Positions 1-41,394 of a DNA stretch of 41,394 nucleotides are shown piece by piece. The stretch spans positions 1 to 41,394 of IMG/VR virus record IMGVR_UViG_3300005096_000519; one strand, given 5' to 3'. The notes under the pieces were generated by a model. That model did not search any database. It was given only the letters and a program-made list of their open reading frames with translations, and was not told the origin of the DNA. The stretch is from a virus. Within the stretch, counting starts at the first letter, position 1, and every line of letters begins with the position of its first letter. A program made the translations under genes and the position numbers.

Positions 1-237
1 ATGGCTAGAGAGGGCATCACTGATCTAGGTGAGGGTTTTGGTGAGTTCCTGACCCATGCCCATCGCTTTCACGACCAGAAAGGCCGCATGACCGGAACAG
101 ACTTTGAACAATATATTGGCAACAAGGTAGCCACCAAAGGAAAGAAATATAACACCTTGCGAAATGAGTCTCCTGAGGCCGAAGAGGATAAAAAGGCTCG
201 TGCGGAAGCCTATCGGAAGGAGAAGGATGGTGAATGA
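1..237 (+). CDS. Small hypothetical protein, first gene of the plus-strand integrase module
   Basis: A 78-aa charged protein whose last third is rich in Lys, Glu and Ala (likely helical). The ATG is the first base of the window, so neither its ribosome binding site nor a longer N-terminus can be excluded. Its stop overlaps the start of the helix-turn-helix gene by 11 bases, which suggests one operon with that gene and integrase 1. I do not recognise the family; position alone suggests an accessory gene of a mobile element. Confidence 0.55.
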   Translation: MAREGITDLGEGFGEFLTHAHRFHDQKGRMTGTDFEQYIGNKVATKGKKYNTLRNESPEAEEDKKARAEAYRKEKDGE

Positions 238-547
238 AGTCAGAACCCTCGGGCTACAACAGGCCGCTGAATTACTCAAAATGCACCCGGAAACCCTTAG
301 ACAACGGGTACTTAGCGGCGAAATCCCCAGTGCAAAACCTGGAAGGTCATGGATATTCATTGAGGCTGACCTTGCCGAATGGCTCCGATCACAATACTCT
401 AGTGCGCGGCAGGTGGCGCAGGAAGGAGGCAAACTGTGTCCATCTATAAACGAGGTGACTCGCCCTATTGGTGGGTCAAAATTTCCGTTGCAGGTTGCAA
501 AACAGTGCAGAGAAGCACTGGGACTACCGACCGACAGAAAGCCTTAG
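227..547 (+). CDS. Helix-turn-helix (MerR/excisionase-like) protein upstream of integrase 1
   Basis: A 106-aa protein with an N-terminal HTH of the excisionase/DNA-binding type: residues about 6-50 contain QQAAELLKMHPETLRQRV followed by the GEIPSAKPGRSW wing-like turn and an acidic WL helix. A helix-turn-helix protein just before a tyrosine integrase is typical of recombination directionality factors. The ATG at 227 has a strong GGAAGGAG site. The C-terminal 37 residues are read out of frame over the first 112 bases of the integrase gene, which starts inside it at a GTG; small overlaps are common in such modules, but this is a long one. Function in excision is inferred from position. Confidence 0.7.
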   Translation: MVNEVRTLGLQQAAELLKMHPETLRQRVLSGEIPSAKPGRSWIFIEADLAEWLRSQYSSARQVAQEGGKLCPSINEVTRPIGGSKFPLQVAKQCREALGLPTDRKP

Positions 548-1476
548 AACTGCATGACCACTTAAAAGTCCAGCTCTGGCGACAATCTAGACTTGGCGAG
601 AAGCCCACTTACACATGGGATCAGGCGGTCTTGCGGTTCTTGGCTGAAACAACGTACAAGCGAAGTCATGCTGATGATAAGCAGCGCTTACGCTGGCTGC
701 ATCCTCATTTTGAGGGGGTACCGCTGGAGGGTATAACGCGGGATCTATTGGATGAAACAATGGCCAAGCGTCCCGAGTTAAGCCCTGCTACGGTAAATAG
801 GTATGTTGCGGTTGTACGCTCTATCTTGCGAAAGGCTTGCCTGGAATGGGATTGGATTTCCAAGGTTCCAGCTTTTCGTATAAGAAAGGAGGCTCAGAAG
901 CGAGTTCGGTGGATCACACAGGAAGAGGCAGCAAGGTTGATTGATGCTTTGCCTTCACACCTAAAAGATCCGGCTGTGTTCTCACTTCAAACAGGGCTAC
1001 GCCAGCGTAATGTATTTGGGCTGGAATGGAGGCAGGTTGATCTTCAGAGGCGGTTGGCTTGGATCTATGTAGATCAGGCTAAAGGTGGACGTGATATATC
1101 GGTTCCATTAAACCCTGATGCTATAGCGGCTCTGAGGAGGCAGCTTGGAAACCATGATACACACGTTTTCAGCTTTCGAGGAAAACCTATGTCCTGTTTT
1201 GATACCCGAACATGGCAGAAAGCGCTGAAGATTGCCGGGATAGATAATTTCCGGTGGCATGATCTACGGCACACCTGGGCAAGCTGGCATGTTCAGGCAG
1301 GAACGACGCTTCAGGAGTTAATGGAGTTGGGCGGTTGGAGTAGTTACACGATGGTTTTGCGCTATGCTCATCTTGCAGATTCGCACCTGCATGATGCTGC
1401 AAGCCGGATCGGAGGTACGATTCAGCTACGTTCCAATGTTGTGCCAATTAGTGGGATGAAGAGAGGGATGCTGTAA
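436..1476 (+). CDS. int: Tyrosine recombinase / integrase 1
   Basis: A 346-aa phage-type tyrosine recombinase. An N-terminal arm-binding/core-binding region (to about residue 150) precedes the catalytic domain. The catalytic set is visible: R189 in TGLRQRN, a lysine near 216, H275 and R278 in HDLRHTW, W301 and nucleophile Y310 in VLRYAHL. The start is GTG at 436, chosen because GGAAGGAGG lies just upstream. The gene runs towards, and ends 14 bp from, the CCA end of the tRNA-Leu fragment, as expected of an integrase that uses that tRNA as its attachment site. It is only distantly similar to integrase 2 and lies on the opposite strand to the phage genes, so it probably belongs to a separate element or the flanking host island. 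It could alternatively be a lysogeny gene of the same phage. Confidence 0.9.
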   Translation: MSIYKRGDSPYWWVKISVAGCKTVQRSTGTTDRQKALELHDHLKVQLWRQSRLGEKPTYTWDQAVLRFLAETTYKRSHADDKQRLRWLHPHFEGVPLEGITRDLLDETMAKRPELSPATVNRYVAVVRSILRKACLEWDWISKVPAFRIRKEAQKRVRWITQEEAARLIDALPSHLKDPAVFSLQTGLRQRNVFGLEWRQVDLQRRLAWIYVDQAKGGRDISVPLNPDAIAALRRQLGNHDTHVFSFRGKPMSCFDTRTWQKALKIAGIDNFRWHDLRHTWASWHVQAGTTLQELMELGGWSSYTMVLRYAHLADSHLHDAASRIGGTIQLRSNVVPISGMKRGML

Positions 1477-1490
1477 GTTGTTGTTTTTAT

Positions 1491-1548
1491 TGGTGCCCGG
1501 GGCCGGAATCGAACCGGCATGGTCGCAATGACCGGCGGATTTTAAGTC
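1491..1548 (-). other. 3' fragment of tRNA-Leu(UAA): probable attachment-site junction
   Basis: On the minus strand this reads as the 3' two-thirds of a bacterial tRNA-Leu: anticodon loop CTTAAAA, long variable arm, T-arm GCCGGTTCGATTCCGGC, acceptor strand CCCGGGC and encoded CCA at 1493-1491. The 5' half is missing: the bases before the loop (from 1549 up) cannot pair with TCCGCC, and no GCCCGGG acceptor strand or D-arm follows. Loss of the 5' half at the anticodon loop is the classic signature of a tRNA used as att by a tyrosine integrase. A 12-bp block, GGATTTTAAGTC, at 1537-1548 recurs at 1604-1615 in the intact tRNA next door. Confidence 0.8.
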
Positions 1549-1558
1549 TTGTGCAAAG

Positions 1559-1645
1559 TGGTACCGGGGACGGGACTTGAACCCGTAAGCCTTTGACAGC
1601 GCTGGATTTTAAGTCCAGTGTGTTTACCAATTTCACCACCCCGGC
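1559..1645 (-). tRNA. tRNA-Leu(UAA), complete, probably phage-encoded
   Basis: Complete 87-nt leucine tRNA on the minus strand with encoded CCA (1561-1559). Acceptor GCCGGGG pairs with CCCCGGT (one G-U), D-arm contains AATTGGTAAAC, anticodon arm CTGGA-CTTAAAA-TCCAG gives UAA, then a long variable arm and T-arm ACGGGTTCAAGTCCCGT. Its sequence differs from the neighbouring tRNA-Leu fragment in both arms, so it is not the restored half of that tRNA but an independent gene. It lies between the att fragment and integrase 2, co-directional with the phage early operon. Confidence 0.92.
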
Positions 1646-1648
1646 TCC

Positions 1649-1697
1649 GCAACATCTCACCTATTCTGCAACATCTCCGCAACATTTTCTGCAACAT
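1649..1697 (+). repeat. Four GCAACAT repeats, candidate integrase arm-binding sites
   Basis: GCAACAT occurs at 1649, 1668, 1679 and 1691, three of the copies extended to GCAACATCTC. Spacings of 19, 11 and 12 bp put the last three on the same face of the helix. The array is about 100 bp from the likely crossover in the tRNA fragment and about 55 bp from the end of integrase 2, exactly where arm-type sites of a tyrosine integrase are expected. Role is inferred. Confidence 0.5.
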
Positions 1698-1752
1698 CTC
1701 CCGCAGGTGGACGTAAGTCTACCCGCAGGCTCCTCTCCAGTCCAACTCAATC

Positions 1753-2793
1753 CTATACCTCATCTCCATCAGGCTCAAGAACAGCCGACGCTTGGATCAG
1801 ATGGATCGGTGCCAGCTTGGCATATCGCATCGTCGTCTTTGGTGCCTTATGTCCTAGCCAATCCATTACGACCTTCAGGGACACACCACGTTGTACCAAG
1901 CGCGACGCACAGGTGTGGCGGCACAGATGTGGGGTGAACTCCTTATCCTGGGCGAGACCTAAGTGGGATCTAGCTCTATCCCAACCATGCCGCAGCCAAG
2001 ATTGCTTGTAAGGGAACACCCTCCCCTCTCCTTGTAACACCATGCGACTCTCTACGATTTTCCGCACCCGTTTCGTCATAGGCACTGATCGAGCCTCATT
2101 AGTCTTAGTGATGGAAGCCTGGAGCATGATGAGGTTTTGCTTGAGGTCTACATCGCGCCCCTCAAAGGCAAGTAGCTCCCCACACCGCATACCTGTATCA
2201 AGGAGGACTGTGATCACATCTACGTGGTCGTGTTTGTTCCAGAATGTTAGCAGGTCGAGCAGGCTCCTCTCCTCTTCATCGCTTACCCAGCGTAGCCGTC
2301 CCTTGCCCTCATCGAGCCGCTTGATTCGCGGTCTGTCTTCGATCCACTCTTCCTCAACTGCCAGGGTGAGCATCTTGGAGAGTGCCGACATTTTCCGATT
2401 GATCGTACTATCGACGATACCCTTGTTCTCCAGCTGTTTCCGGTAGTCCTTGATGGCGAACTTGTCGATGTCCTGTAGGGGCTTGTCCTTCCCGAAGTAG
2501 GCGAGTGCTTCCCTAGCGTTGATCAAGGACGTGCGTACTCCTCTTGTTCCTCTCCACCCAAGCGGAGGGGGTTCCCGTTCGACGCCGTTATAGGCTGCCT
2601 GGAGCGTATATACTTTATGTGCCTGGGTGGAACGATTAGGGCGCACGAAAGCCTCATCCCCTCTCAGAAGGGAAGCCCTCAGCTCGGCTTCTGCAATCTC
2701 CGCCTCTTCATGGGTTGCGCGGGTGGTAGTTCGCCTCTTCCCTTTGACTGTTACATCAACGAAGAAGCTGTTTCCTCTTGGTCTGATAGCCAT
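1753..2793 (-). CDS. int: Tyrosine recombinase / integrase 2 (phage integrase)
   Basis: A 346-aa tyrosine recombinase that would catalyse attP x attB recombination of the T7-like phage. An N-terminal arm-binding segment (1-45), a core-binding domain (about 60-155) and a catalytic domain are visible with R203 (TGMRCGEL), K230, H289 and R292 (PHLCRHTCAS), H315 and Tyr324 (MRYAKL). Strong AAGGAG lies 9 bases before the ATG. It is the last gene of the minus-strand left-arm operon, 15 bp after a MarR-like regulator, and its 3' end points to the GCAACAT repeats and tRNA-Leu att region. Integrases of this kind are known in marine T7-like phages. Confidence 0.93.
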   Translation of the reverse strand: MAIRPRGNSFFVDVTVKGKRRTTTRATHEEAEIAEAELRASLLRGDEAFVRPNRSTQAHKVYTLQAAYNGVEREPPPLGWRGTRGVRTSLINAREALAYFGKDKPLQDIDKFAIKDYRKQLENKGIVDSTINRKMSALSKMLTLAVEEEWIEDRPRIKRLDEGKGRLRWVSDEEERSLLDLLTFWNKHDHVDVITVLLDTGMRCGELLAFEGRDVDLKQNLIMLQASITKTNEARSVPMTKRVRKIVESRMVLQGEGRVFPYKQSWLRHGWDRARSHLGLAQDKEFTPHLCRHTCASRLVQRGVSLKVVMDWLGHKAPKTTMRYAKLAPIHLIQASAVLEPDGDEV

Positions 2794-2808
2794 GTTGTAT
2801 CTCCTTAA

Positions 2809-3156
2809 CTATGATACTTCAAGTATGCGAGTCGCTAGACTCTCAAGGAAGCGTGTTCCTTTCGGTGTTAAAGTGACAAGCCTGTTCCGGTTGTCTTTTG
2901 GATCATAATACTTTTTCACGAAGTCCAACCCAGGATTGCCATGTCTATCGACATCAGTTAGCGCCGCTACATTTCTTGAAGCTGTGCTCCTGGCGTATCC
3001 CAGGCGTGCCGCAAGCTCCGAGATTGTCGGCTCTCCCATCTTGTGGATCGCCAGTAGGGTTGCTATCGTCTGTGCTGGCATATCCGCTTGTACCTTGCGA
3101 ACCTGCTCCACACCCACTGCAAACCCCATCAATACTACTCTCTGTTCTTTGTTCAT
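2809..3156 (-). CDS. MarR-like winged-helix regulator A
   Basis: A 115-aa protein with a MarR-type winged helix: residues about 43-66 (EPTISELAARLGYARSTASR) form the HTH, and about 77-105 carry the wing with YDPKDNRNRLVTLTPKG, the D-x-R-hydrophobic-LT-x-KG pattern of MarR wings. It lacks the long C-terminal dimerisation helices, so it is shorter than standard MarR proteins. AAGGAG precedes the ATG. It is directly upstream of integrase 2, which makes a role in lysogeny control likely (inference). Confidence 0.85.
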   Translation of the reverse strand: MNKEQRVVLMGFAVGVEQVRKVQADMPAQTIATLLAIHKMGEPTISELAARLGYARSTASRNVAALTDVDRHGNPGLDFVKKYYDPKDNRNRLVTLTPKGTRFLESLATRILEVS

Positions 3157-3328
3157 CTATCAGCTCCTTGGATATTTCAATGTATAATCTCCCTACTCTG
3201 ATAAAAAGGGTGCGCTCCTCTTTCCAGCAGTCTAAAATTTTATATGCAGAAGTGCAATCCTCTGTCTCTATGAATATACAAAACCCTGCCACTTCGTAGT
3301 ACCGCCAACCTTTTAACCTTCTTAGCAT
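2954..3328 (-). CDS. Doubtful overlapping ORF, N-terminal part possibly genuine
   Basis: A 124-aa frame starting at an ATG with AAAAGG upstream; a longer form from 3424 has no visible ribosome site. The first 60 residues look like a real beta-rich protein (GWRYYEVAGFCIFIETE, RTLFIRVGRLYIEI). The C-terminal half (from about residue 58) overlaps the MarR-like gene by 203 bases in another frame and has shadow-like composition. Either an overlapping gene or a gene whose own stop was lost. Without it, 3157-3493 would be about 340 bp without any coding call. Confidence 0.3.
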   Translation of the reverse strand: MLRRLKGWRYYEVAGFCIFIETEDCTSAYKILDCWKEERTLFIRVGRLYIEISKELIDEQRTESSIDGVCSGCGAGSQGTSGYASTDDSNPTGDPQDGRADNLGACGTPGIRQEHSFKKCSGAN

Positions 3329-3493
3329 TTCATTACCTTTTAAGTCCGTGATAACTTCGTTGTTTATGAGAGCATCACCTCCTAGATTCTTCTCCCAACC
3401 AGTCCCTGCCTTGCACTTAATCATCCATACATAATGCAGGGCTGTCCATCACTTACCTTGGCATTCTGCCCACACAAAGTTTGACTATTGCTT

Positions 3494-3925
3494 CTACTTA
3501 TCTGGGGCAGTGTTTTTCGCAGTGAGCAACACACCTAACGGAAGCAGGTTATGGAACGCCACTGTGACCATCCCTTTAGCAATTCTGGCTCCTTCGGGAG
3601 TGTGCCTGATCTCAGTCTGCTGCCGTCCTTCTGCGACTCTATCTATAGTTAGTAGCCCCTCATCCACTAGCCCCCGGACGATCCTACCAACGGTACGGCG
3701 TGACACCCCCACTATATCGGATATTGATTGTATGGTTGCGGGCTGGTTGTCCAGTGTGGAGAGACAGACCGCCATTGCTGTAAGAGCGCCCTCAAAGCCG
3801 CCTCCAGGAGTTCCGCGCAGCAGCCGATAGGTTTCTAGGTAGGCTACGTAGAATGTTTTAAAATCTTCAGGTGTCTCAGGTTTCAAAAGTACCTCCTCCT
3901 CCTGATTTTTGGGATGATAAGTCAT
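3494..3925 (-). CDS. MarR-like winged-helix regulator B
   Basis: A 143-aa protein, unrelated in detail to regulator A but with the same plan: an N-terminal helical segment, an HTH at about 66-90 (QSISDIVGVSRRTVGRIVRGL) and a wing with EIRHTPEGARIA at 105-117. AGAGGA lies before the ATG. The pair of small winged-helix proteins next to the integrase is the only repressor-like content in the window; no CI-type or Cro-type HTH_3 protein is present. It probably represses phage promoters in the lysogen; the operator is not identified. Confidence 0.72.
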   Translation of the reverse strand: MTYHPKNQEEEVLLKPETPEDFKTFYVAYLETYRLLRGTPGGGFEGALTAMAVCLSTLDNQPATIQSISDIVGVSRRTVGRIVRGLVDEGLLTIDRVAEGRQQTEIRHTPEGARIAKGMVTVAFHNLLPLGVLLTAKNTAPDK

Positions 3926-3944
3926 AGGTAATCCTCTAAGTTAG

Positions 3945-4112
3945 TTAAGTCCACACTTCGCCGTAAACAATGCTTTGATACATCTTCTTAGCCTGCCGCC
4001 TCTCAATCTTGCGACGCACCACACCTACGGCGATAGACTCAGGGTTTGGTTTAGTTGTGGAGCCAGAAACTGCGCATTTATCATTCAAACTCTGCCAGTA
4101 ATTTTGTGACAT
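3945..4112 (-). CDS. Small basic hypothetical protein
   Basis: A 55-aa protein (MSQNYWQSLNDK...) with a basic centre (VVRRKIERRQAKK). The ATG at 4112 is preferred over an upstream TTG at 4187 because AAAGAGGT sits at the right distance. The leader CAACCAAAGAGG is repeated before the PAPS-reductase-like gene. Function unknown. Confidence 0.6.
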   Translation of the reverse strand: MSQNYWQSLNDKCAVSGSTTKPNPESIAVGVVRRKIERRQAKKMYQSIVYGEVWT

Positions 4113-4183
4113 CTGTAGTACCTCTTTGGTTGTGGATGAAAGTTCACTCGAAACCACTCTCCAGAATGGCTCCTGGTTAACCC

Positions 4184-4432
4184 TCAATTCAATGCATCAA
4201 TGTATGGCTTAGCATGCCCGGTATAGGCAGCATCCAGGGGCAGATCTCCGGCTTTCTCATAGGCTGCGCGTGCTTGCTGGATGTATTGGTCTGCCTCGTC
4301 TCCTTGGAGGTAGAAGTCGTCACCATTGCCTTCTATGGCTACCCATGAGAACCGCGTGTTGACCTCTACGGTAAAGCCTGAAGCGGTCACATAGTTGGCG
4401 TGCTGTTGGTATATTTCAGTTATGGTTGGCAT
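4184..4432 (-). CDS. Small hypothetical phage protein
   Basis: An 82-aa protein, MPTITEIYQQ..., with an aromatic/acidic middle (FSWVAIEGNGDDFYLQGDEA). Its ATG shares one base with the stop of the preceding gene (TAATG), so the two are translationally coupled. Family not recognised; the left-arm location beside ArdA is where T7-like phages keep host-takeover genes. Confidence 0.7.
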   Translation of the reverse strand: MPTITEIYQQHANYVTASGFTVEVNTRFSWVAIEGNGDDFYLQGDEADQYIQQARAAYEKAGDLPLDAAYTGHAKPYIDALN

Positions 4433-4680
4433 TATGTTTTCTCCTCGAATGGGATAGCGTCCCAAAGCCAGTAAGCATCGGCTTTTTCTTGGTCTGTCAT
4501 TTCAGGGCGTACCGTACTATCCCCACTAATGACCGCAACAGCCTTGGGCGTGTCTAGGCTGCCGGTGCCAAAGGGCATAAGGTGGTATCTCTTTTTGGTG
4601 TCCACAGCTACGTATTTAACAGCGACGCCCTGGTAAGTAGTCCCTGGTTTAACATCAATAAATCCCGCTAAGATTGCCAT
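4432..4680 (-). CDS. Small hypothetical phage protein
   Basis: An 82-aa protein starting MAILAGFIDVKPG, chosen over an upstream in-frame ATG because GGAAGG lies 9 bases before it and it clears the previous gene. Beta-strand-rich, acidic C-terminus. Ends in a TAATG junction with the next gene. Function unknown. Confidence 0.7.
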   Translation of the reverse strand: MAILAGFIDVKPGTTYQGVAVKYVAVDTKKRYHLMPFGTGSLDTPKAVAVISGDSTVRPEMTDQEKADAYWLWDAIPFEEKT

Positions 4681-4681
4681 G

Positions 4682-4981
4682 TTAGTAGTCCTTCCCATAC
4701 CGACGACAGAGAGCTGTATATCGTTCCAGTAGGTTGCCGAACTTAATTAGAACCACGTCGCTTGTATCAGCTGCCAGTACTGCGAAGTAACTATCCGGCT
4801 CTCTAGGGTCACTGCCTGCCCCCGGTGAGTAGTCCCAATGTCCAGGGATAGAAACACCCCGCCACCATAGCTCTGCCGCCACATCGAATAAGGCTGCCAG
4901 GGAGGTGCCCCAGGGGTCGCCCTTGAGGTCACCTAGTCGCAGCTCCTGGGTAAGGTCGCTTAGGGTGTGTGTGGGTGTCAT
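4682..4981 (-). CDS. Hypothetical phage protein
   Basis: A 99-aa protein with the segment KGDPWGTSLAALFDVAAELWWRG at about 20-42, a pattern I associate with small conserved proteins of phage early regions. It overlaps the PAPS-reductase-like gene by ATGA and is followed 1 bp later by the next gene, so it sits in a tight operon. No catalytic motif seen. Confidence 0.7.
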   Translation of the reverse strand: MTPTHTLSDLTQELRLGDLKGDPWGTSLAALFDVAAELWWRGVSIPGHWDYSPGAGSDPREPDSYFAVLAADTSDVVLIKFGNLLERYTALCRRYGKDY

Positions 4982-5769
4982 GCTGCTTTCCTCTCGGGGT
5001 TGTTTACGGGTGTGGTCTCTACAGGGATACCGATAATCTCATCCAGATACCGGGGCGCTTCGCCCTTCCTGGGCATGAGCATGGTGTGGTTGACCTCCCG
5101 CTCCAGGTGGACATACTCGGCGTATAGCTCTGGGTTGAGCCGGGCAGCGGTCACAAGGTCAGCCTTGCTGGACATAATGCAGAAGCAGCAGCTTAGGCGG
5201 CTCATGCCCTGCTCGTAGGCCCAGTGTGGTTTCTGTCCCGCTGCCCATATCTGGGTGAACACCTCCTGGGTAGTCCAATCCTGTATAGGCAACCAGTCGT
5301 ACCACTCCCGCCCCGCCTTGCTGTTCCTGCTGTTAAACCTGAACACCCTGGCCTTGGCGCGGTTGGGGGACTCCTCCGCACGTAGTCCCATGCAGTTGAC
5401 TACCAGCCCGTTGAACTCTGGGTGGGCCTTAAGGTAGTGCCGGATGGCCTTCTCTAGTGGCCCACGCTTCAGGTCACTGGTGCATTGGCGGTATTGAGGT
5501 GAAGGGAACATCTGGCGGTGTCGCACCATATCCATGAAGGACTTGGAAGCCTCCGTCACCACCAGCGGGTAACCTGTAGTGGTTGCCTTGATGTGGTCTA
5601 AGGTGCCTGCCCATTCCACACCTGGGAGGTGAGCATGGAGCACTAGGATCTGACTATCTGGCACCACTGCGGCTATCTGGGACTGCATTGCCTGGGAGTC
5701 CTTGCCCCCACTGTGGTTGACCACAAACAAGGCACCTCTGGCGATCAGTGATTTAATCTCGGGTTGCAC
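4978..5769 (-). CDS. PAPS reductase / PP-loop ATP pyrophosphatase-like protein
   Basis: A 263-aa protein of the phosphoadenosine phosphosulfate reductase (PP-loop) family. The ATP-binding loop HSGGKDS is at residues 19-25, GLRAEES at 128-134, and a cysteine cluster LSCCFCIM at 193-199 replaces the usual ECG-LH reductase tail. Phage members of this family have been linked to sulfur metabolism, tRNA thiolation or DNA modification; which one applies here cannot be told from sequence. GTG start with GAGGAG upstream. Lies just downstream of ardA in the early operon, so a protective or host-takeover role is plausible. Confidence 0.82.
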   Translation of the reverse strand: MQPEIKSLIARGALFVVNHSGGKDSQAMQSQIAAVVPDSQILVLHAHLPGVEWAGTLDHIKATTTGYPLVVTEASKSFMDMVRHRQMFPSPQYRQCTSDLKRGPLEKAIRHYLKAHPEFNGLVVNCMGLRAEESPNRAKARVFRFNSRNSKAGREWYDWLPIQDWTTQEVFTQIWAAGQKPHWAYEQGMSRLSCCFCIMSSKADLVTAARLNPELYAEYVHLEREVNHTMLMPRKGEAPRYLDEIIGIPVETTPVNNPERKAA

Positions 5770-5875
5770 TTTCTGCTACTCCTCTTTGGTTGCTCGGGGT
5801 TTACTCAGGGACACTCTAGGAATGCCCCTTGATAAGCCTCTCGACTGTTGCACGGTGTGGAAGCATTCAGGCGCA

Positions 5876-6385
5876 CTAACAACAGTGAAAGAAGTGCCCG
5901 GAATCCTCACACATGTCGCCACCTAACCGTGCGTCCCTTCCATACGCTTCAAAATCAAAATAATACTGGAGATTTTCGGGCACCTCTGAGAGCATCCCTG
6001 TATCCTCTGCGAACTGTTCTGCCCAATCTTTCCAGCTATCATATTCCCCGGTGTAGCGTTCCTCAACTTCACTAGGCGGGATGTCACAATTAGCCGCCGC
6101 CTCGAATACTTCAGGATCAAGACAGGATTGTTTCACAGCGTCTGCGTACTCCCAATAAGCACTAGCTAGATCGTAGGTGCCCACATACTGGCGAGGTATA
6201 TCGTCATAATCACAGACAATCCATTCCTCTCTGAGGCCGCCTAGTTCTTCTGTAAGTTCTTCCAGCCATATACCCACGTCGTAGTGGAAATCGGCCTGGT
6301 TGTCATATACGTCTAGGTCAAATGTCTTTGGGATTAACTTCCCTTCGTTGTAATCGGTCAAGCTATATAGCGTTAAGGTTGCCAT
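5876..6385 (-). CDS. ardA: ArdA-like antirestriction protein (DNA mimic)
   Basis: A 169-aa very acidic protein matching the ArdA family in length and motifs: WIVCDYDDIP at 55-64, GEYDSWKDWAEQFAEDTG at 113-130 and the hallmark PENLQYYFDFEAYGRD at 136-151, ending in a short hydrophobic/His tail. ArdA dimers imitate B-form DNA and block type I restriction-modification enzymes. AAGGAG precedes the ATG. It is the second gene from the left end, the equivalent of the position held by the unrelated DNA mimic Ocr (gp0.3) in T7, so early expression on entry is expected. Confidence 0.88.
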   Translation of the reverse strand: MATLTLYSLTDYNEGKLIPKTFDLDVYDNQADFHYDVGIWLEELTEELGGLREEWIVCDYDDIPRQYVGTYDLASAYWEYADAVKQSCLDPEVFEAAANCDIPPSEVEERYTGEYDSWKDWAEQFAEDTGMLSEVPENLQYYFDFEAYGRDARLGGDMCEDSGHFFHCC

Positions 6386-6435
6386 GTTGTTTACTCCTTA
6401 GTTTCTTAATGTTGCACGTAATGGATAGATATAAT

Positions 6436-6597
6436 CTAGTAGCCCAACCAATGCCAAAGGTTTACAGCATCCAGACAAACCCATACATAACGAAGGTTTT
6501 CCCCTTGGGTATATAGGTCTACAGCCATAAGCGAACCGTCTTGTAAACAGCAAGTTATGCCGTGCTGTTCTAGTAGGTTGATCCTGTTGTCCATCAT
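6436..6597 (-). CDS. Small conserved phage protein, first left-arm gene
   Basis: A 53-aa protein, MMDNRINLLEQHGITC...HWLGY. The start at 6597 is preferred to upstream ATGs because AGGGG lies 8 bases before it. Short proteins ending in W-LGY with a central DGSLMAV-like strand recur in many phages; no function is known. As the first gene after the left-end non-coding region it would be among the first expressed. Confidence 0.65.
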   Translation of the reverse strand: MMDNRINLLEQHGITCCLQDGSLMAVDLYTQGENLRYVWVCLDAVNLWHWLGY

Positions 6598-6642
6598 GTG
6601 TCCCCTGCTTCTGTCTGTGGGTTTGTGCTGCTGTTGGGAATA

Positions 6643-6670
6643 ATAGTACACGCTGTGGACATAAATACAA
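6643..6670 (-). promoter_or_regulatory. Candidate host sigma70 promoter for the left-arm operon
   Basis: On the minus strand TTGTAT and TACTAT are separated by 16 bp, 45 bp upstream of the first left-arm gene, in AT-rich DNA. Each hexamer matches consensus at 4 of 6 positions, so this is only a candidate; a host promoter is required somewhere in this stretch. Confidence 0.3.
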
Positions 6671-6796
6671 GTAGATTTTCACGCAACATGCAAATTAGTT
6701 TACCCGCTATATAAGAGTAAAACTTACAGATAACCAGAAAATAAACAGATAGATCATGCACTGAGTGGACATAATGCAGCCAGCGGAAAGTGTTAG

Positions 6797-6826
6797 CGGT
6801 AGGGAACGGTAGGGAACGGTAGGGAA
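6797..6826. repeat. Three tandem copies of a 10-bp repeat
   Basis: CGGTAGGGAA occurs three times without interruption and is followed by a partial fourth unit (CGGA). It lies in the presumed packaging region. T7 carries arrays of short direct repeats beside its terminal repeats, which makes an analogous role in end formation or concatemer pairing plausible. Confidence 0.85.
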
Positions 6827-7165
6827 CGGAATGCACCAGGGATATAACTAAAGGTTATAACGCGGGGAGCTGTTACACCGTAAAGCAAACAGATGCGCCC
6901 CAAGGATAGCAGATAGTGTACAACCGACACTAAGTAAAAAAAAACAGGTAAACAGGGCGCACACTAGATGTAAGATCTGCTGCACTACCCAATAGAATCA
7001 AGCACTTAGCGGCTCTTTGTTGCGGGGTTGTTGCTCTTTGCTGCCTACATACAGGAGAAAAGCGTCGCCAGGGGTACAGGGGGGTAACTCAATGTAGCGC
7101 CTAGCGTTATACCTGCTCAGATTTTTTAGTCTAAAATGTCCCCATAGTTCAACAAGAGGAAACCA

Positions 7166-7423: not shown

Positions 7424-7490
7424 GTAATCTCATACTAATATTGAGCACTACTTATAGTTATACCTATAGTATGCATAGGGTAGGCTCTCC

Positions 7491-7510
7491 CTATAGTGGG
7501 GGTTAATTAG
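7491..7510 (-). promoter_or_regulatory. Phage RNA polymerase promoter at the packaging end (phiOR-like, class III type)
   Basis: Minus strand CTAATTAACCCCCACTATAG followed by GGAGAG. It matches the other promoters of the window except ACCCCC for ACACCC. Its initiation region CACTATAGGGAGA is the same as that of T7 class III promoters. It lies just downstream of the large terminase gene, like phiOR of T7, a promoter at the genome end used in concatemer processing. Initiation expected at 7491. Confidence 0.8.
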
Positions 7511-7542
7511 AGAGAAGCATCCCTGCCTCTCCTAACTATATG

Positions 7543-22704: not shown

Positions 22705-22885
22705 TAGTGTTTATTTCCTTTGAGAAGATTCACAGGGATGTGATTAATTCCCTTGAACGCTTCAACACCTCGGCACAGAGTTGTCCCTCGCAAGGGGCTA
22801 CGGCTTATGTGTGATTGTTCTTGGGTGGTAGCCTGCTAAAAAGCGGCACTACTCTTTCTTCTCGGTAAGGATCAATGACTCTAGG

Positions 22886-22958
22886 GGTGATAGGTGGGAC
22901 TCGAACCCACAACTACCGGGGTCACATCCCGGCTCTCTACCATTGAGGCTACTACCAC
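22886..22958 (-). tRNA. tRNA-His(GUG)
   Basis: Minus-strand tRNA: acceptor GTGGTAG pairs with CTATCAC, anticodon arm CCGGG-ATGTGAC-CCCGG (GUG), T-arm GTGGGTTCGAGTCCCAC, discriminator C as usual for histidine. CCA not encoded. The acceptor stem is extended by a further inverted repeat outside the tRNA (GACTCTAGG before, CCTAGAGTC after). Confidence 0.9.
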
Positions 22959-22959
22959 A

Positions 22960-23073
22960 CCTAGAGTCACTGTATAAAACGGCTGGTTACTTAAGGAGAC
23001 GCCACCAGTGGGGCGACGACAAAAGGCTTCTCACCTTAGCGGAGGTTATACGATGTACCTCTAAACGAGTTGG
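22960..23073. other. Spacer between tRNA-His and tRNA-Asn with small hairpins
   Basis: 114 bp without an ORF or a T-arm. Minus strand contains GAGGT/ACCTC, AAGG/CCTT(TT) and CGCC/GGCG hairpins in a row. No tRNA could be folded from it. May hold a decayed tRNA or processing structure. Confidence 0.4.
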
Positions 23074-23145
23074 CTGGCACGGTAGGGATCGAACCTACGA
23101 CAACAGCATTAACAGTGCTGCGTTCTGCCTCTGAACTACATGCCA
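23074..23145 (-). tRNA. tRNA-Asn(GUU)
   Basis: Acceptor TGGCATG pairs with CGTGCCA, anticodon arm CAGCA-CTGTTAA-TGCTG (GUU), T-arm GTAGGTTCGATCCCTAC, discriminator G. 72 nt, minus strand, CCA not encoded. Confidence 0.92.
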
Positions 23146-23154
23146 CTAAACTGG

Positions 23155-23236
23155 TGGTTACACTTGGAATCGAACCAAGGCTGCCCGAAGGAACGGTTTT
23201 ACAGACCGCTCACGATCCATACGTGACTACGCAACC
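23155..23236 (-). tRNA. tRNA-Tyr(GUA)
   Basis: Acceptor GGTTGCG pairs with TGTAACC (with G-U pairs), anticodon arm GCGGT-CTGTAAA-ACCGT (GUA), long variable arm, T-arm CTTGGTTCGATTCCAAG. 82 nt, minus strand. Confidence 0.92.
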
Positions 23237-23245
23237 TAAAACTGG

Positions 23246-23318
23246 AGCCTTGTGTAGGAATCGAACCTACTATCGGCGGGTTACAAATCCGCTGCATCGC
23301 CAGCAATGCTTACAAGGC
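23246..23318 (-). tRNA. tRNA-Thr(UGU)
   Basis: Acceptor GCCTTGT pairs with ACAAGGC, anticodon loop TTTGTAA (UGU) on a stem with one A-C mismatch next to the loop, T-arm GTAGGTTCGATTCCTAC. 73 nt, minus strand. Confidence 0.9.
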
Positions 23319-23322
23319 GTGG

Positions 23323-23397
23323 TCTGTGTGGCAGGATTTGAACCTGCGACATCTCGCTTCCAAGGCGAGGACTCTACGCAGACTGAGCTACACACAG
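23323..23397 (-). tRNA. tRNA-Pro(UGG)
   Basis: Acceptor CTGTGTG pairs with CACACAG, anticodon arm CTCGC-CTTGGAA-GCGAG (UGG), T-arm GCAGGTTCAAATCCTGC. Its first base directly follows the T-run of the hairpin at 23398-23428. Confidence 0.92.
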
Positions 23398-37291: not shown

Positions 37292-37516
37292 AGCAGCAGC
37301 ACGACGGGCGCACTCTCGCTTCCCTTGGTGAGGTACATAACGGGAACTCTCGCGGTGTTTAATTCGAGTTGGATAGAATGTGCTGGTAGAGGTGATTACA
37401 CCTGTAACTGTATTGAGAAATTTGGAAGTCACCCGCATTCCAAAGTAGAGGTAGCGACCTATCGCTTGAACAGCGTGATCACTTCGAGTTCCTATAAAAT
37501 CTAATTCATCACTCAC
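37289..37516 (-). CDS. Small basic hypothetical phage protein
   Basis: A 75-aa protein, MSDELDFIGTRSDHAVQAIGRYLYFG..., with an Arg/Lys-rich C-terminus ending ARRAAA. ATGA overlap with the preceding gene. Stop codon supplied by the promoter downstream. Unknown function. Confidence 0.65.
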   Translation of the reverse strand: MSDELDFIGTRSDHAVQAIGRYLYFGMRVTSKFLNTVTGVITSTSTFYPTRIKHRESSRYVPHQGKRECARRAAA

Positions 37517-38107: not shown

Positions 38108-40573
38108 TCAGGCAAAGAAAAACCGGGACTCCAAAATGGAATCCAGATCCAGGGTGCCTTTACTCGGCGGGGGTTCAAGTTGTCCACTGAATAAGACAGG
38201 CTCTACCTCTGCTTTGAAGTCCTCCAAGACATCGTTCTCTTTGTACATATCGACAAACGCACGGCGTAAGGCTAGTGCTAGCACCTCCGTGTCAGCAGCG
38301 AGTGTTCCATAAGAGTCGTGTACCATTGCAAACTGAGTAACATCATTCTCCACAGCAAGCACGACGGTGAGCCGTAAGGCAGTTGCATCTAAAGCATGCA
38401 CAAAGTTGGGTGCGATCCCATTTGACTGCCTACGATTATCCAATGTGGGTAGATCCTCCTGGAGGGTAAGCTTCACAACCTTCCCGCCTATCTTGGTCTC
38501 AACCCTGCGTGCTTTCTGATCCATATATGCTTGCATGATCACGAATCCATCAGGGGTCGTCCAGTTAATTGGTAGTCCCTCCTTTGATAATGCTCTCGCG
38601 GAGTCCTGCAACCAGTTCATTGCTTCCCGTGCCTTGATGACCACCTCACCGATAGCTTCCCAGACAATTTTTGCCAGATAACTAGATGCTTTGAAGGTCT
38701 GTTCACCAAAGGGGTTAGCTTCACCTGCTGCTACACGTTCCTCTAAGTGCTCCTGTATATATTCACGACATGAGTAGAGCGTCCCAGAGTAGGGCACTAC
38801 CATCACTGCGCGTTTGGTTGTCTTCCGGTTTATCCCAAAGTCTAACCACTGCTGTGCTAGTTCATCCTTATTATGTCCAGGGGTGGAAACATACAGGCGC
38901 AACTTGGCTATAGAAACGTCTGCCACGTCCTGATAGATGTCTGCCGGGGTAGCTTTCGGTAGCAGGTTGACTGACTCCCCTCCTACCTCATCCCGTAATG
39001 CTGCGCTGTAGTGTTGTAGACCGTTGCAGCTCCCATCCAATGCAATAGGGAGAGATGAGACAAACCCGTAGCCTTCATTGAGAAACCCTGCCCACTCAAA
39101 GCACCACGCCAGGAACTGCCAGGGCTTATCAGCCTCCACCCACCACCTGTTCTCAATGGGATCAGCTGCCACTGCTTTAATCTCCTCACTGTGGAGGTGC
39201 GCCCATAAGGATCTCTCTTGCAGTGACACCTTGTCGTGTCCGAAGAGGTTAGCGCCGTGCATGCCCAGCCAATCAGCAGCTGTCTTGTCCCGGATAGGTT
39301 TACCTGTGGCAAAGGTAAGCAATCCCTTAGCCATGTCGGCACCCTGCGGATTCAGGAACATAGGCACTGCATAGATTCTCCCCCGGAAATCATACTGGTA
39401 GGGGAAGAATATCTCAGGCTCCTCTTTAAATCGCTCAGCTATTGTGATGATTTTAACAACCTGAAGACGCTTGGAGCGTGCCTTGCTGTTACGATCATGA
39501 ATAGTGGCTGTCGCTTTCTTCCAATCAATGAAACCTTCACGCTGCTCTGGACTCATCTCACCTTTAAGTATCTCTTTAGGGAGACATGCAGGACGTGGTG
39601 GTAACTCTATGTCAACACGCGAGGGTAGCTTACCTAGATCCAAACCCCTCTCCCACACGATACTCGCCACCTCTAACACCTTAGCGTTGATCTTCCAGGA
39701 AGTACGCTGGAGACTGTTGATCGCACTGTAGACTACAGGCATCAACGCCTTGCGTCCTTGTATCTCCTCCAGATAGTTGCGGTTGCGACTCTTGATCATA
39801 CAGAGAGGCCGTAGCGCCTCAGTGTAGTAGCCTCCGCCGTAGAGCGCACCCCACTCTTTTGGGGGGATGACCGTAGGGAGATAGACAGGGAACATCAGCT
39901 CCGCCCTGGCATTCTTCTCGTCGATCCACGCCATGGTCTTAGGTGTAGCCTCCAGGTACAGCGGTGAGTTGTTCTTACCCTCATGCCGTTGGATAACATC
40001 AGCTAGCTGCGTGGATTTACAGAATAGCTCAATACATTTGATACCTATATGCAGCTTATCCACCTTGGGCCAGTCAATGTGTGAGCAAGTCCTACTGTGG
40101 GCAACCCTCATCACCCTACGTTTATGTACTTGGTGCTGGGTTGTCCGTTTGTCCAGGTAGCGGAACAGCTCTGGTGCCTCCTTCTGCATCTGTGTAAAGC
40201 GCACCTCGTCCTCTAGCTGGGATGCTACACGCAGGGCAGCCTTCTGTACGTGACTGCGAAAGGTAATCTGATCCAGGCATATCTTGGAGATGATGAAAGC
40301 TGCTACATCTGGTTCGATAAGTTTCAGATAGGCGACTGCTTTATGCTTTCTCCCCTTCCCTCCACTCGCTTCGAGGAACGCTTGGAGGGCTTCTGATACT
40401 GGCTGGATGGCTCCTCTCATTAAGTGGGAACCGTGGGATGAGGTGGACTCCTCCCCCCGCGCTCTACTCTCTGCAAGCTGCGCCCGGTAACGGGCTGTCC
40501 CCATGCCTTGCATCTCTAACTCTAGGTGGGCTTGCTTGGTGTACTGCTCATCGGTGATTGCTGGTGTCTGCAT
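38108..40573 (-). CDS. DNA-directed RNA polymerase, single subunit (T7 gp1-like)
   Basis: An 821-aa polymerase (T7: 883) that transcribes middle and late genes from the promoters listed here. Catalytic residues: D513 (IALDGSCNGLQHYSA), K587 (KTTKRAVM), Y595 (VVPYSG) and D753 (MVHDSYGT), equal to T7 D537, K631, Y639 and D812. DFRGRIY lies at 395-401; the promoter-specificity loop is about residues 684-706 (MDQKARRVETKIGGK...), quite unlike that of T7, in line with the different promoter recognition bases. The C-terminus ends FFFA, like the FAFA foot of T7. AGGAGA before the ATG. Confidence 0.98.
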   Translation of the reverse strand: MQTPAITDEQYTKQAHLELEMQGMGTARYRAQLAESRARGEESTSSHGSHLMRGAIQPVSEALQAFLEASGGKGRKHKAVAYLKLIEPDVAAFIISKICLDQITFRSHVQKAALRVASQLEDEVRFTQMQKEAPELFRYLDKRTTQHQVHKRRVMRVAHSRTCSHIDWPKVDKLHIGIKCIELFCKSTQLADVIQRHEGKNNSPLYLEATPKTMAWIDEKNARAELMFPVYLPTVIPPKEWGALYGGGYYTEALRPLCMIKSRNRNYLEEIQGRKALMPVVYSAINSLQRTSWKINAKVLEVASIVWERGLDLGKLPSRVDIELPPRPACLPKEILKGEMSPEQREGFIDWKKATATIHDRNSKARSKRLQVVKIITIAERFKEEPEIFFPYQYDFRGRIYAVPMFLNPQGADMAKGLLTFATGKPIRDKTAADWLGMHGANLFGHDKVSLQERSLWAHLHSEEIKAVAADPIENRWWVEADKPWQFLAWCFEWAGFLNEGYGFVSSLPIALDGSCNGLQHYSAALRDEVGGESVNLLPKATPADIYQDVADVSIAKLRLYVSTPGHNKDELAQQWLDFGINRKTTKRAVMVVPYSGTLYSCREYIQEHLEERVAAGEANPFGEQTFKASSYLAKIVWEAIGEVVIKAREAMNWLQDSARALSKEGLPINWTTPDGFVIMQAYMDQKARRVETKIGGKVVKLTLQEDLPTLDNRRQSNGIAPNFVHALDATALRLTVVLAVENDVTQFAMVHDSYGTLAADTEVLALALRRAFVDMYKENDVLEDFKAEVEPVLFSGQLEPPPSKGTLDLDSILESRFFFA

Positions 40574-40634
40574 CGTGATGGTCTCCTGGGTACTTACTTA
40601 AGGTTTAACTTAAAGTAGGAGCTTGGGGTGCTCC

Positions 40635-40654
40635 GCTGTAGTGGGTGTTAATTA
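40635..40654 (-). promoter_or_regulatory. Phage RNA polymerase promoter in front of the RNA polymerase gene
   Basis: Minus strand TAATTAACACCCACTACAGC, just after the antirepressor stop codon and 62 bp upstream of the RNA polymerase ATG. The transcript would begin with a GGAGC/GCTCC hairpin. Provides positive autoregulation of the polymerase. Initiation expected at 40636. Confidence 0.92.
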
Positions 40655-40656
40655 AG

Positions 40657-41394
40657 TTACTCGTCGGTAAGGGCTGAACCTGCTTCCTTTTGGAGACCTG
40701 CGTAGAAAGCCGCCTCATGTGGGACTAGAGGGTGGTTTCCTTTAATACAAAGTCGGTTAACTTCACGGGCAAACTCAACTGAGTAGATGCACTTAATTGT
40801 GCCTTCGTGCTTGAAAGGACTGACGCTGAACTCTAATGCCCTAGCCGCAGCACATAGGAACTTTCCAAACTTCTTAATATCCAGCTTTCGGTCATTGAAA
40901 TACATCTCAGCAATCTGCCTTGCCGTCATCCAACCATCTGGGATAGGAGCCTCCTTAGTCTTAGCCTCCAACACCTGCACCTTAGCCAGCGCCAGCTTCA
41001 GTTCATGCGCAGTCTGCTTGTCCTTGGCTATGAGTTTCCCGTCGAGGAACTTCCCGAAGACTTTGACCACGAACACAGTCAACGCACGGGCTTTAGGTGT
41101 CCCGCATTGGGATGTGATGTAGACCGCTTGGTCTCTGGTGAGGTGGTAGGAGGTGGTCTCACCCACTCTGCCTTTGCCGCATGTGTATGGCACCGCAACC
41201 TGCGTTACCAATCCAAACTCCTCCATCACAGCAAGGTGGTCAGTCCCCTTTTTTCCCTTGAGCAGCTCACGTATGTGGTTCGGGTTTTTGTACCCCAGCC
41301 AAGCCCCAAGATCCGTATCGAGAACTCTAGGTATTCCATCTTCCCACTCGGTTACTGGGAGGGTGGATAGGGTGGTGGTTAGTTGGGTTTTCAT
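40657..41394 (-). CDS. Phage antirepressor-like (Rha/BRO-N type) protein
   Basis: A 245-aa protein. The N-terminal 120 residues (TDLGAWLGYKNPNHIRELLKG, TSYHLTRDQAVYITSQCGTPKARALTVFVVKVFGKFLDG) fit the antirepressor N-terminal domains found in temperate phages; the C-terminal part has a second helical domain (PDGWMTARQIAEMYF...) and ends acidic. It is immediately upstream of the RNA polymerase promoter, so it may relieve repression at induction. The window ends at its ATG, so the start and any longer N-terminus cannot be checked. Confidence 0.75.
   Translation of the reverse strand: MKTQLTTTLSTLPVTEWEDGIPRVLDTDLGAWLGYKNPNHIRELLKGKKGTDHLAVMEEFGLVTQVAVPYTCGKGRVGETTSYHLTRDQAVYITSQCGTPKARALTVFVVKVFGKFLDGKLIAKDKQTAHELKLALAKVQVLEAKTKEAPIPDGWMTARQIAEMYFNDRKLDIKKFGKFLCAAARALEFSVSPFKHEGTIKCIYSVEFAREVNRLCIKGNHPLVPHEAAFYAGLQKEAGSALTDE

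Follow-up and report, generated by a model that had tools for sequence, protein, structure and literature searches.

Gene order and predicted promoter exchange at the tRNA-Leu attachment site of a temperate T7-like prophage

How can a T7-like prophage stay silent when its RNA polymerase (RNAP) activates its own promoter? The anatomy of the attachment (att) site bears on this question and is described here for a stretch of 41,394 bases, IMG/VR virus record IMGVR_UViG_3300005096_000519 (the window), which comprises most of an integrated prophage and flanking DNA. The explanation that fits best, and which as a whole we consider probable, is that the window holds most of a temperate T7-like (Autographiviridae) prophage whose phage attachment site (attP) lies between a block of MarR-family regulator, integrase and tRNA-Leu and the block that carries RNAP. 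Gene order in relatives strongly supports a real and general effect of integration, the separation of the MarR-integrase/early operon from RNAP, and the window is consistent with it, its right end falling outside the record.

Gene order in free and integrated T7-like phages

In the isolates LUZ100, CRP-125, Pasto, BB8, ProddE and YIMV22061 (n = 6), the integrase gene (int) lies on the RNAP strand, 0.1–3 kb upstream of RNAP, and many viral contigs have it at the same distance on the same strand. When host genomes were searched with an integrase profile, the best int at 20 loci was found 35–43 kb downstream of RNAP, again on the same strand (L015, L016, L017, L020, L022, L023, L026, L027, L028, L029, L035, L036, L040, L043, L044, L045, L050, L057, L071 and L076); at none of the 20 was int upstream of RNAP. 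An int about 40 kb downstream is what integration would produce from an attP placed between int and RNAP and, since this arrangement recurs at 20 loci, the topological separation is a general property of the group. The original prediction that integration parts the early operon from RNAP is thus borne out. Locus L035 (Polynucleobacter, G015:C5) is a 40,304-bp contig that runs from tRNA-Leu/RNAP to int and ends at both att sites; its integration state is uncertain and the contig may reflect a mix of excised and integrated phage. The L018 prophage is split over two contigs. Integrases with in-frame stops were seen in L173 (Endozoicomonas) and L183 (Aminobacter), each with both prophage ends present; these are possibly stranded, non-excisable prophages.

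Separation is not obligatory, because the gh-1-like prophage of Pseudomonas rubra (L052) is integrated with int and RNAP together. Here host genes are followed without a break by a short open reading frame (ORF), an integrase of another kind, the early genes and RNAP, and the short ORF resembles the start of an interrupted chemotaxis-receptor gene (gene names from reading translations). The gh-1-like Pseudomonas prophages are therefore like the window in being integrated T7-like prophages with an RNAP, and unlike it in their integrase and in keeping int, early genes and RNAP together after integration. Judged from this gene order, a T7-like prophage can exist without separation.

The host tRNA gene and the att junction

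Where both junctions could be read, the 5′ half of the host tRNA gene lies directly upstream of RNAP and co-directional with it. This holds for the prophages of P. putida, Methylovorus, Litchfieldella, R. mongolense, R. anhuiense, Devosia, the Rhizobiales isolates L026, L027 and L057, Xanthobacter YC-JY1, R. palustris, Aminobacter and the alphaproteobacterial genome L028. The 5′ half is mostly 0.2–0.65 kb upstream of RNAP and the 3′ half follows int. In Litchfieldella, host biotin-synthesis genes, the tRNA half and RNAP stand in sequence. On the complete chromosome of Xanthobacter YC-JY1, the phage tRNA-Leu is beside the host 3′ half (G008:C1:3060642-3060695) in the same order as in the window, and the host 5′ half is found at the RNAP end, at a distance of 43 kb. 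The tRNA orientation is reversed in a minority of cases (OTTO1, Reyranella, Xanthobacter NM-59 and X. aminoxidans).

Integration had been predicted to remove RNAP from read-through of host promoters. This is contradicted, because the tRNA 5′ half and its promoter are directly upstream and co-directional; integration would rather be a promoter exchange, usually with a terminator between, and would not free RNAP from host promoters. The kind of host promoter that the original prediction had named as telling against it is thus found in relatives, as a tRNA promoter facing the RNAP side, but a terminator usually intervenes.

The window contains one junction of this type, together with the following features.

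1491–1548, minus strand: host tRNA-Leu(UAA), 3′ half, running from the anticodon loop to the CCA; integration has displaced it (read from the sequence)
1537–1548, minus strand: 12-bp att core GACTTAAAATCC, matching the Leu(UAA) anticodon loop
1559–1645, minus strand: complete phage-borne tRNA-Leu(UAA) (ARAGORN; Rfam RF00005, 63.3 bits)
1646–1701, minus strand: GATGTTGC(A/G)GA repeats in the int2–tRNA interval, which may be arm sites for the integrase or operators for MarR (read from the sequence)
1753–2793, minus strand: int2, tyrosine integrase of temperate Autographiviridae type (PF00589 8.9e-25, phrog_1 2.4e-55)
2809–3156, minus strand: MarR-family regulator directly upstream of int2 (PF12802 5.9e-07, phrog_9665 3.3e-25)
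3494–3925, minus strand: second helix-turn-helix (HTH) protein, weakly MarR/TrmB-like (Pfam matches under curated cut-offs)
4978–5769, minus strand: PAPS-reductase-like early gene (PF01507 2.7e-15)
5876–6385, minus strand: ArdA antirestriction early gene (PF07275 8.5e-23)
7488–7511, minus strand: site AATTAACCCCCACTATAGGGA resembling a phage-RNAP promoter, ahead of the early region (position weight matrix, PWM, score 30.4)
38108–40573, minus strand: single-subunit T7-like RNAP (phrog_414 3.5e-267, PF00940 9.6e-110)
40633–40656, minus strand: promoter-like site TTAATTAACACCCACTACAGC directly upstream of RNAP (PWM 35.9)
40657–41394, minus strand: Rha-like ORF ('antirepressor') with its ATG at the window end (PF09669 E=0.0014, sub-threshold)

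The host 3′ half reads through the core GACTTAAAATCC, the T-arm GCCGGTTCGATTCCGGC and the acceptor CCCGGGC-A-CCA, ending in CCA at 1491. On the left side, therefore, the core joins phage sequence to the host tRNA-Leu and marks a real att junction. The phage tRNA-Leu(UAA) is the same isoacceptor as the split host gene and is separated from the core by 10 bases. The core lies in non-coding DNA and no phage-strand ORF spans it. At this visible junction the host tRNA is not rebuilt and the shared core is 12 bp, although the identity could be longer, the other junction being outside the window. The int2 gene, the whole phage tRNA-Leu(UAA), the core and the host 3′ half share a single orientation. 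Because the 3′ half is oriented like int2, the host 5′ half and its promoter are predicted immediately beyond 41394, directed towards the Rha-like ORF and RNAP. The proposal that attP lies between int2 and the antirepressor/RNAP end is accordingly supported by the left junction and by the permutation in relatives, the right junction being outside the window.

Three copies of GATGTTGC are at 1698, 1675 and 1656 (minus strand), with one copy elsewhere in the window; comparable phage-specific repeats flank attP in L011, L014, L100 and L010. A search for MarR operators around attP returned only such phage-specific repeats, which could equally be integrase arm sites.

The prophage spans 41394 down to 1559 with its main genes all on the minus strand. 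From 41394 the order is the Rha-like ORF, RNAP, central and late genes, terminase and the early block, which runs ArdA, PAPS-reductase-like, HTH protein, MarR, int2 and the complete tRNA-Leu(UAA). The single-strand order from ardA through int2 and tRNA-Leu to RNAP that had been described for this DNA is confirmed; of the MarR pair claimed there, the member at 2809–3156 stands, whilst that at 3494–3925 is a weaker HTH protein with matches below cut-offs. Features of temperate Autographiviridae are a single-subunit T7-like RNAP gene, a MarR-type regulator followed by a tyrosine integrase beside attP on the RNAP strand, and cognate phage promoters with one ahead of RNAP; the window has the first two, and predicted promoters of this kind. 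The same MarR-integrase pair occurs in LUZ100, CRP-125, L002 and many contigs; int2 aligns with the LUZ100 integrase at 39% identity. In the Desulfovibrio phage ProddE, a CI-like repressor gene (L009 4867-5637, minus strand) in the int–RNAP interval takes the place of MarR beside int, a different control module for this position. The 'antirepressor' name is weak: apart from the sub-threshold Rha match, the ORF has no PHROG match and no close relatives in viral contigs, with partial matches (30%) in two Komagataeibacter phages only. The record stops exactly at its ATG.

The left 1.48 kb of the window (1–1476, plus strand) carries a further tyrosine integrase (int1) together with an excisionase-like ORF (HTH_17), and stops 14 bp short of the CCA at which the host tRNA half ends. 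It belongs to another mobile element, integrated in tandem at this tRNA-Leu and distinct from the phage; a search of the int1 region against plasmids gave no match. Five further phage tRNAs (His, Asn, Tyr, Thr and Pro) cluster at 22884–23397 on the minus strand. The non-coding region before the early genes holds three overlapping CGGTAGGGAACGG repeats with a period of 10 (6797–6829) and two GTGGACATAA repeats (6655–6664 and 6765–6774).

Terminators and promoters between the core and RNAP

Intrinsic terminators were scored at the 35 loci with a recognisable core, 29 with a co-directional and 6 with a reversed host tRNA. On the RNAP strand, a terminator was found between core and RNAP at 20 of the 35; the opposite strand had one at 4, and shuffling all 35 gave an expectation of 0.22. 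All 20 belong to the co-directional loci (20/29 vs 0/6), counts in which L130 duplicates L044, L023 and L045 are near-identical and the core of L025 is doubtful. We regard this orientation contrast in predicted terminators as suggestive, not as proof. On the other side, no terminator was seen left of the core in the co-directional free phages (0/9), nor, for the window and those co-directional prophages that were inspected, between int and core; an early terminator between int2 and attP, which would have undercut the proposed run of early transcription into RNAP, was thus not found. Placed between crossover and RNAP, the terminator would screen RNAP in both the free and the integrated state. 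Two other scans are recorded here. A first one of all 143 RNAP loci (35 with a terminator) was dropped as it mixed unrelated clades, and the mirror prediction, that a reversed tRNA should go with an int-side terminator facing the host promoter, was clear in YIMV22061 only and is unsupported generally.

The best characterised relative is LUZ100 (Putzeys et al. 2023, PMC10134795). Its core GACTTAAAA lies near 3916 and a hairpin near 3960, with terminator T4 right of the core. T4, mapped by transcriptomics, stops most transcripts from P3 (MarR-int) and is followed by the phage promoter phi1 and RNAP; the authors propose that RNAP is expressed by read-through plus phi1 (PMC10134795). From the position of T4, the early operon is therefore already attenuated before RNAP in free DNA. 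LUZ100 and other temperate T7-like phages share with the window the MarR-int operon, an attP-type core and the order relative to RNAP, and LUZ100 also has a phage tRNA-Leu and a phage promoter before RNAP (RNAP identity about 44%). They differ in that the LUZ100 tRNA-Leu is upstream of int on the other strand, whereas that of the window is between int and core; in the extra Rha-like gene before RNAP in the window; and in that no LUZ100 lysogen was obtained, whereas the window prophage is integrated (PMC10134795).

The window has six intergenic TTAATTAACACCCACTAYAGC-like sites that we predict to be phage-RNAP promoters, all on the minus strand (7511, 26882, 34974, 37293, 38064 and 40656), scoring 30–36 against at most 9.7 anywhere else in the window. 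The copy at 40656 precedes RNAP, like phi1 in LUZ100. That at 7511 deviates (CCCCCACTATAGGGAGA) and resembles the T7 promoter, and TACTTAAAACTTAA follows the copies at 37293 and 38064. A polymerase that activates its own promoter would make control of leak important.

Lysogeny and the phage tRNA-Leu

The phage tRNA-Leu has a counterpart in tRNA-dependent lysogeny, which is characterised by a short core, no reconstruction of the host tRNA and a cognate phage tRNA, and is known from actinobacteriophages, with one Lactobacillus prophage mentioned and its spread outside actinobacteriophages left as a question (Guerrero-Bustamante and Hatfull 2024, PMC10865867). In ten relatives with both junctions, OTTO1 and Reyranella among them, the core is 9–15 bp and occupies the same position in the tRNA as that of the window. 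The two halves of the host tRNA flank each of these prophages, which in every case have a complete tRNA-Leu whose anticodon is that of the split gene. The host tRNA is rebuilt at neither junction in Xanthobacter YC-JY1, Litchfieldella, R. mongolense and R. anhuiense. The prophages of R. palustris and the alphaproteobacterium (L028) have the 5′ half repeated and an intact tRNA-Leu on the int side. Those of P. putida and Methylovorus share 55–60 bp with their site, rebuild the tRNA and carry no tRNA-Leu of their own. Among free phages too, core and phage tRNA agree in anticodon, in LUZ100, L002, L011, L014, L019, L096 and L100. Phage and host tRNA-Leu copies differ in sequence.

On this comparison, about ten proteobacterial T7-like prophages carry the anatomy of tRNA-dependent lysogeny. 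The window itself contributes the cognate tRNA and one junction, the remaining anatomy being suggested by its relatives. It is like the described cases in that the core is short, with 12 bp at the junction inside the window, in the host tRNA not being rebuilt there and in a phage tRNA of the same isotype; it is unlike them in belonging to proteobacterial T7-like rather than actinobacterial phages, in that a need for the phage tRNA in lysogeny is here putative, and in the coupling to RNAP separation. The T7-like cyanophages P-SSP7 and S-TIP37 similarly have attP just downstream of int and matching a host tRNA-Leu; their integration was shown by polymerase chain reaction (PCR), the 39-bp site matches the first half of the tRNA, and no stable lysogens were found (PMC8776855).

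These observations can be combined into a model. On infection, RNAP would first be made by leaky read-through of early transcription past the terminator, and its own phage promoter would then amplify it. In the lysogen, the host tRNA-Leu promoter would replace the early promoter upstream of RNAP, the same terminator would screen RNAP from it, MarR would repress, and the phage tRNA-Leu would take over for the split host gene. With a promoter exchanged and a terminator in place, separation would thus change which transcription reaches RNAP and would not alone silence it. In its fullest form, which we put forward tentatively, integration would be a transcriptional switch, in which a host tRNA promoter takes over from the early promoter ahead of an RNAP gene that amplifies itself; the RNAP-side terminator would set a low, host-controlled leak, and lysogeny, spontaneous induction and tRNA replacement would be coupled at one att site.

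Several points weigh against this model. By the criterion used, 9 of the 29 co-directional loci have no terminator, and the terminator may simply end the early operon. The window's own terminator and its exact right junction are predictions, the right arm being beyond the record, and transcription in the integrated state is something we infer. Neither the 398 genomes sampled from the phylum nor the viral contigs contained a match to the host tRNA 3′ half. In the early region of the window, a sigma-70 promoter scan gave no more hits than shuffles, none convincing, and no convincing early terminator was found.

A permutation without regulatory meaning is the strongest rival to this model, and we rate it less likely than not. 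Here attP merely lies beside int, with the RNAP block next, and silence is due wholly to MarR (in ProddE, the CI-like repressor) acting on the RNAP promoters. In most temperate phages, attP is beside int. The conserved MarR-int pairing, the position of the ProddE repressor and the contiguous int and RNAP in P. rubra all suit this account, and the LUZ100 authors favour MarR repression, citing Boeckman et al. 2022 (PMC10134795). It leaves unexplained why RNAP-side terminators occur only where the host tRNA promoter faces RNAP, a contrast in which the group of six is small and non-independent.

Less likely than the switch is the original idea of lysogeny by topology, in which early transcription in free DNA runs into RNAP and integration cuts the link, leaving RNAP without host-driven transcription and so helping to silence it. 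The position of attP between early operon and RNAP, the prophages permuted as predicted and the lack of a terminator between int2 and core in the window agree with it. Against it are the co-directional host tRNA promoter placed upstream, the terminator that already parts early operon from RNAP in the free DNA of most relatives (including T4 of LUZ100), and the gh-1-like prophage L052, which keeps int, early genes and RNAP together beside interrupted host sequence. That topology contributes to maintaining lysogeny is possible but unproven. The proposed analogy to integration-dependent immunity fails on its defining feature: in mycobacteriophage BPs, attP lies inside the repressor gene and integration yields an active truncated repressor (PMC4557955), whereas no gene of the window phage is cut. 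The two are alike in that integration alters expression near attP, so the window phage resembles these systems in part and is not a member.

Least probable is the suggestion of the LUZ100 authors that imprecise excision left the full tRNA-Leu behind as a relic, with no function as a replacement; phage tRNAs beside int could indeed come from hosts (PMC10134795), but all ten prophages with both junctions and a 9–15 bp core pair a split host tRNA with a whole tRNA-Leu of the same anticodon, the two prophages that restore the host gene (P. putida and Methylovorus) carry none, the anticodon match extends to free phages, and phage and host copies differ in sequence.

The LUZ100 paper noted that phi1 'raises questions' (PMC10134795). 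How a T7-like prophage with a self-activating polymerase is kept silent is the question that the att anatomy addresses, since it bears on which promoter reaches RNAP in each state and on the role of the core-proximal terminator. The set of about ten proteobacterial T7-like prophages likewise bears on the spread of tRNA-dependent lysogeny outside actinobacteriophages.

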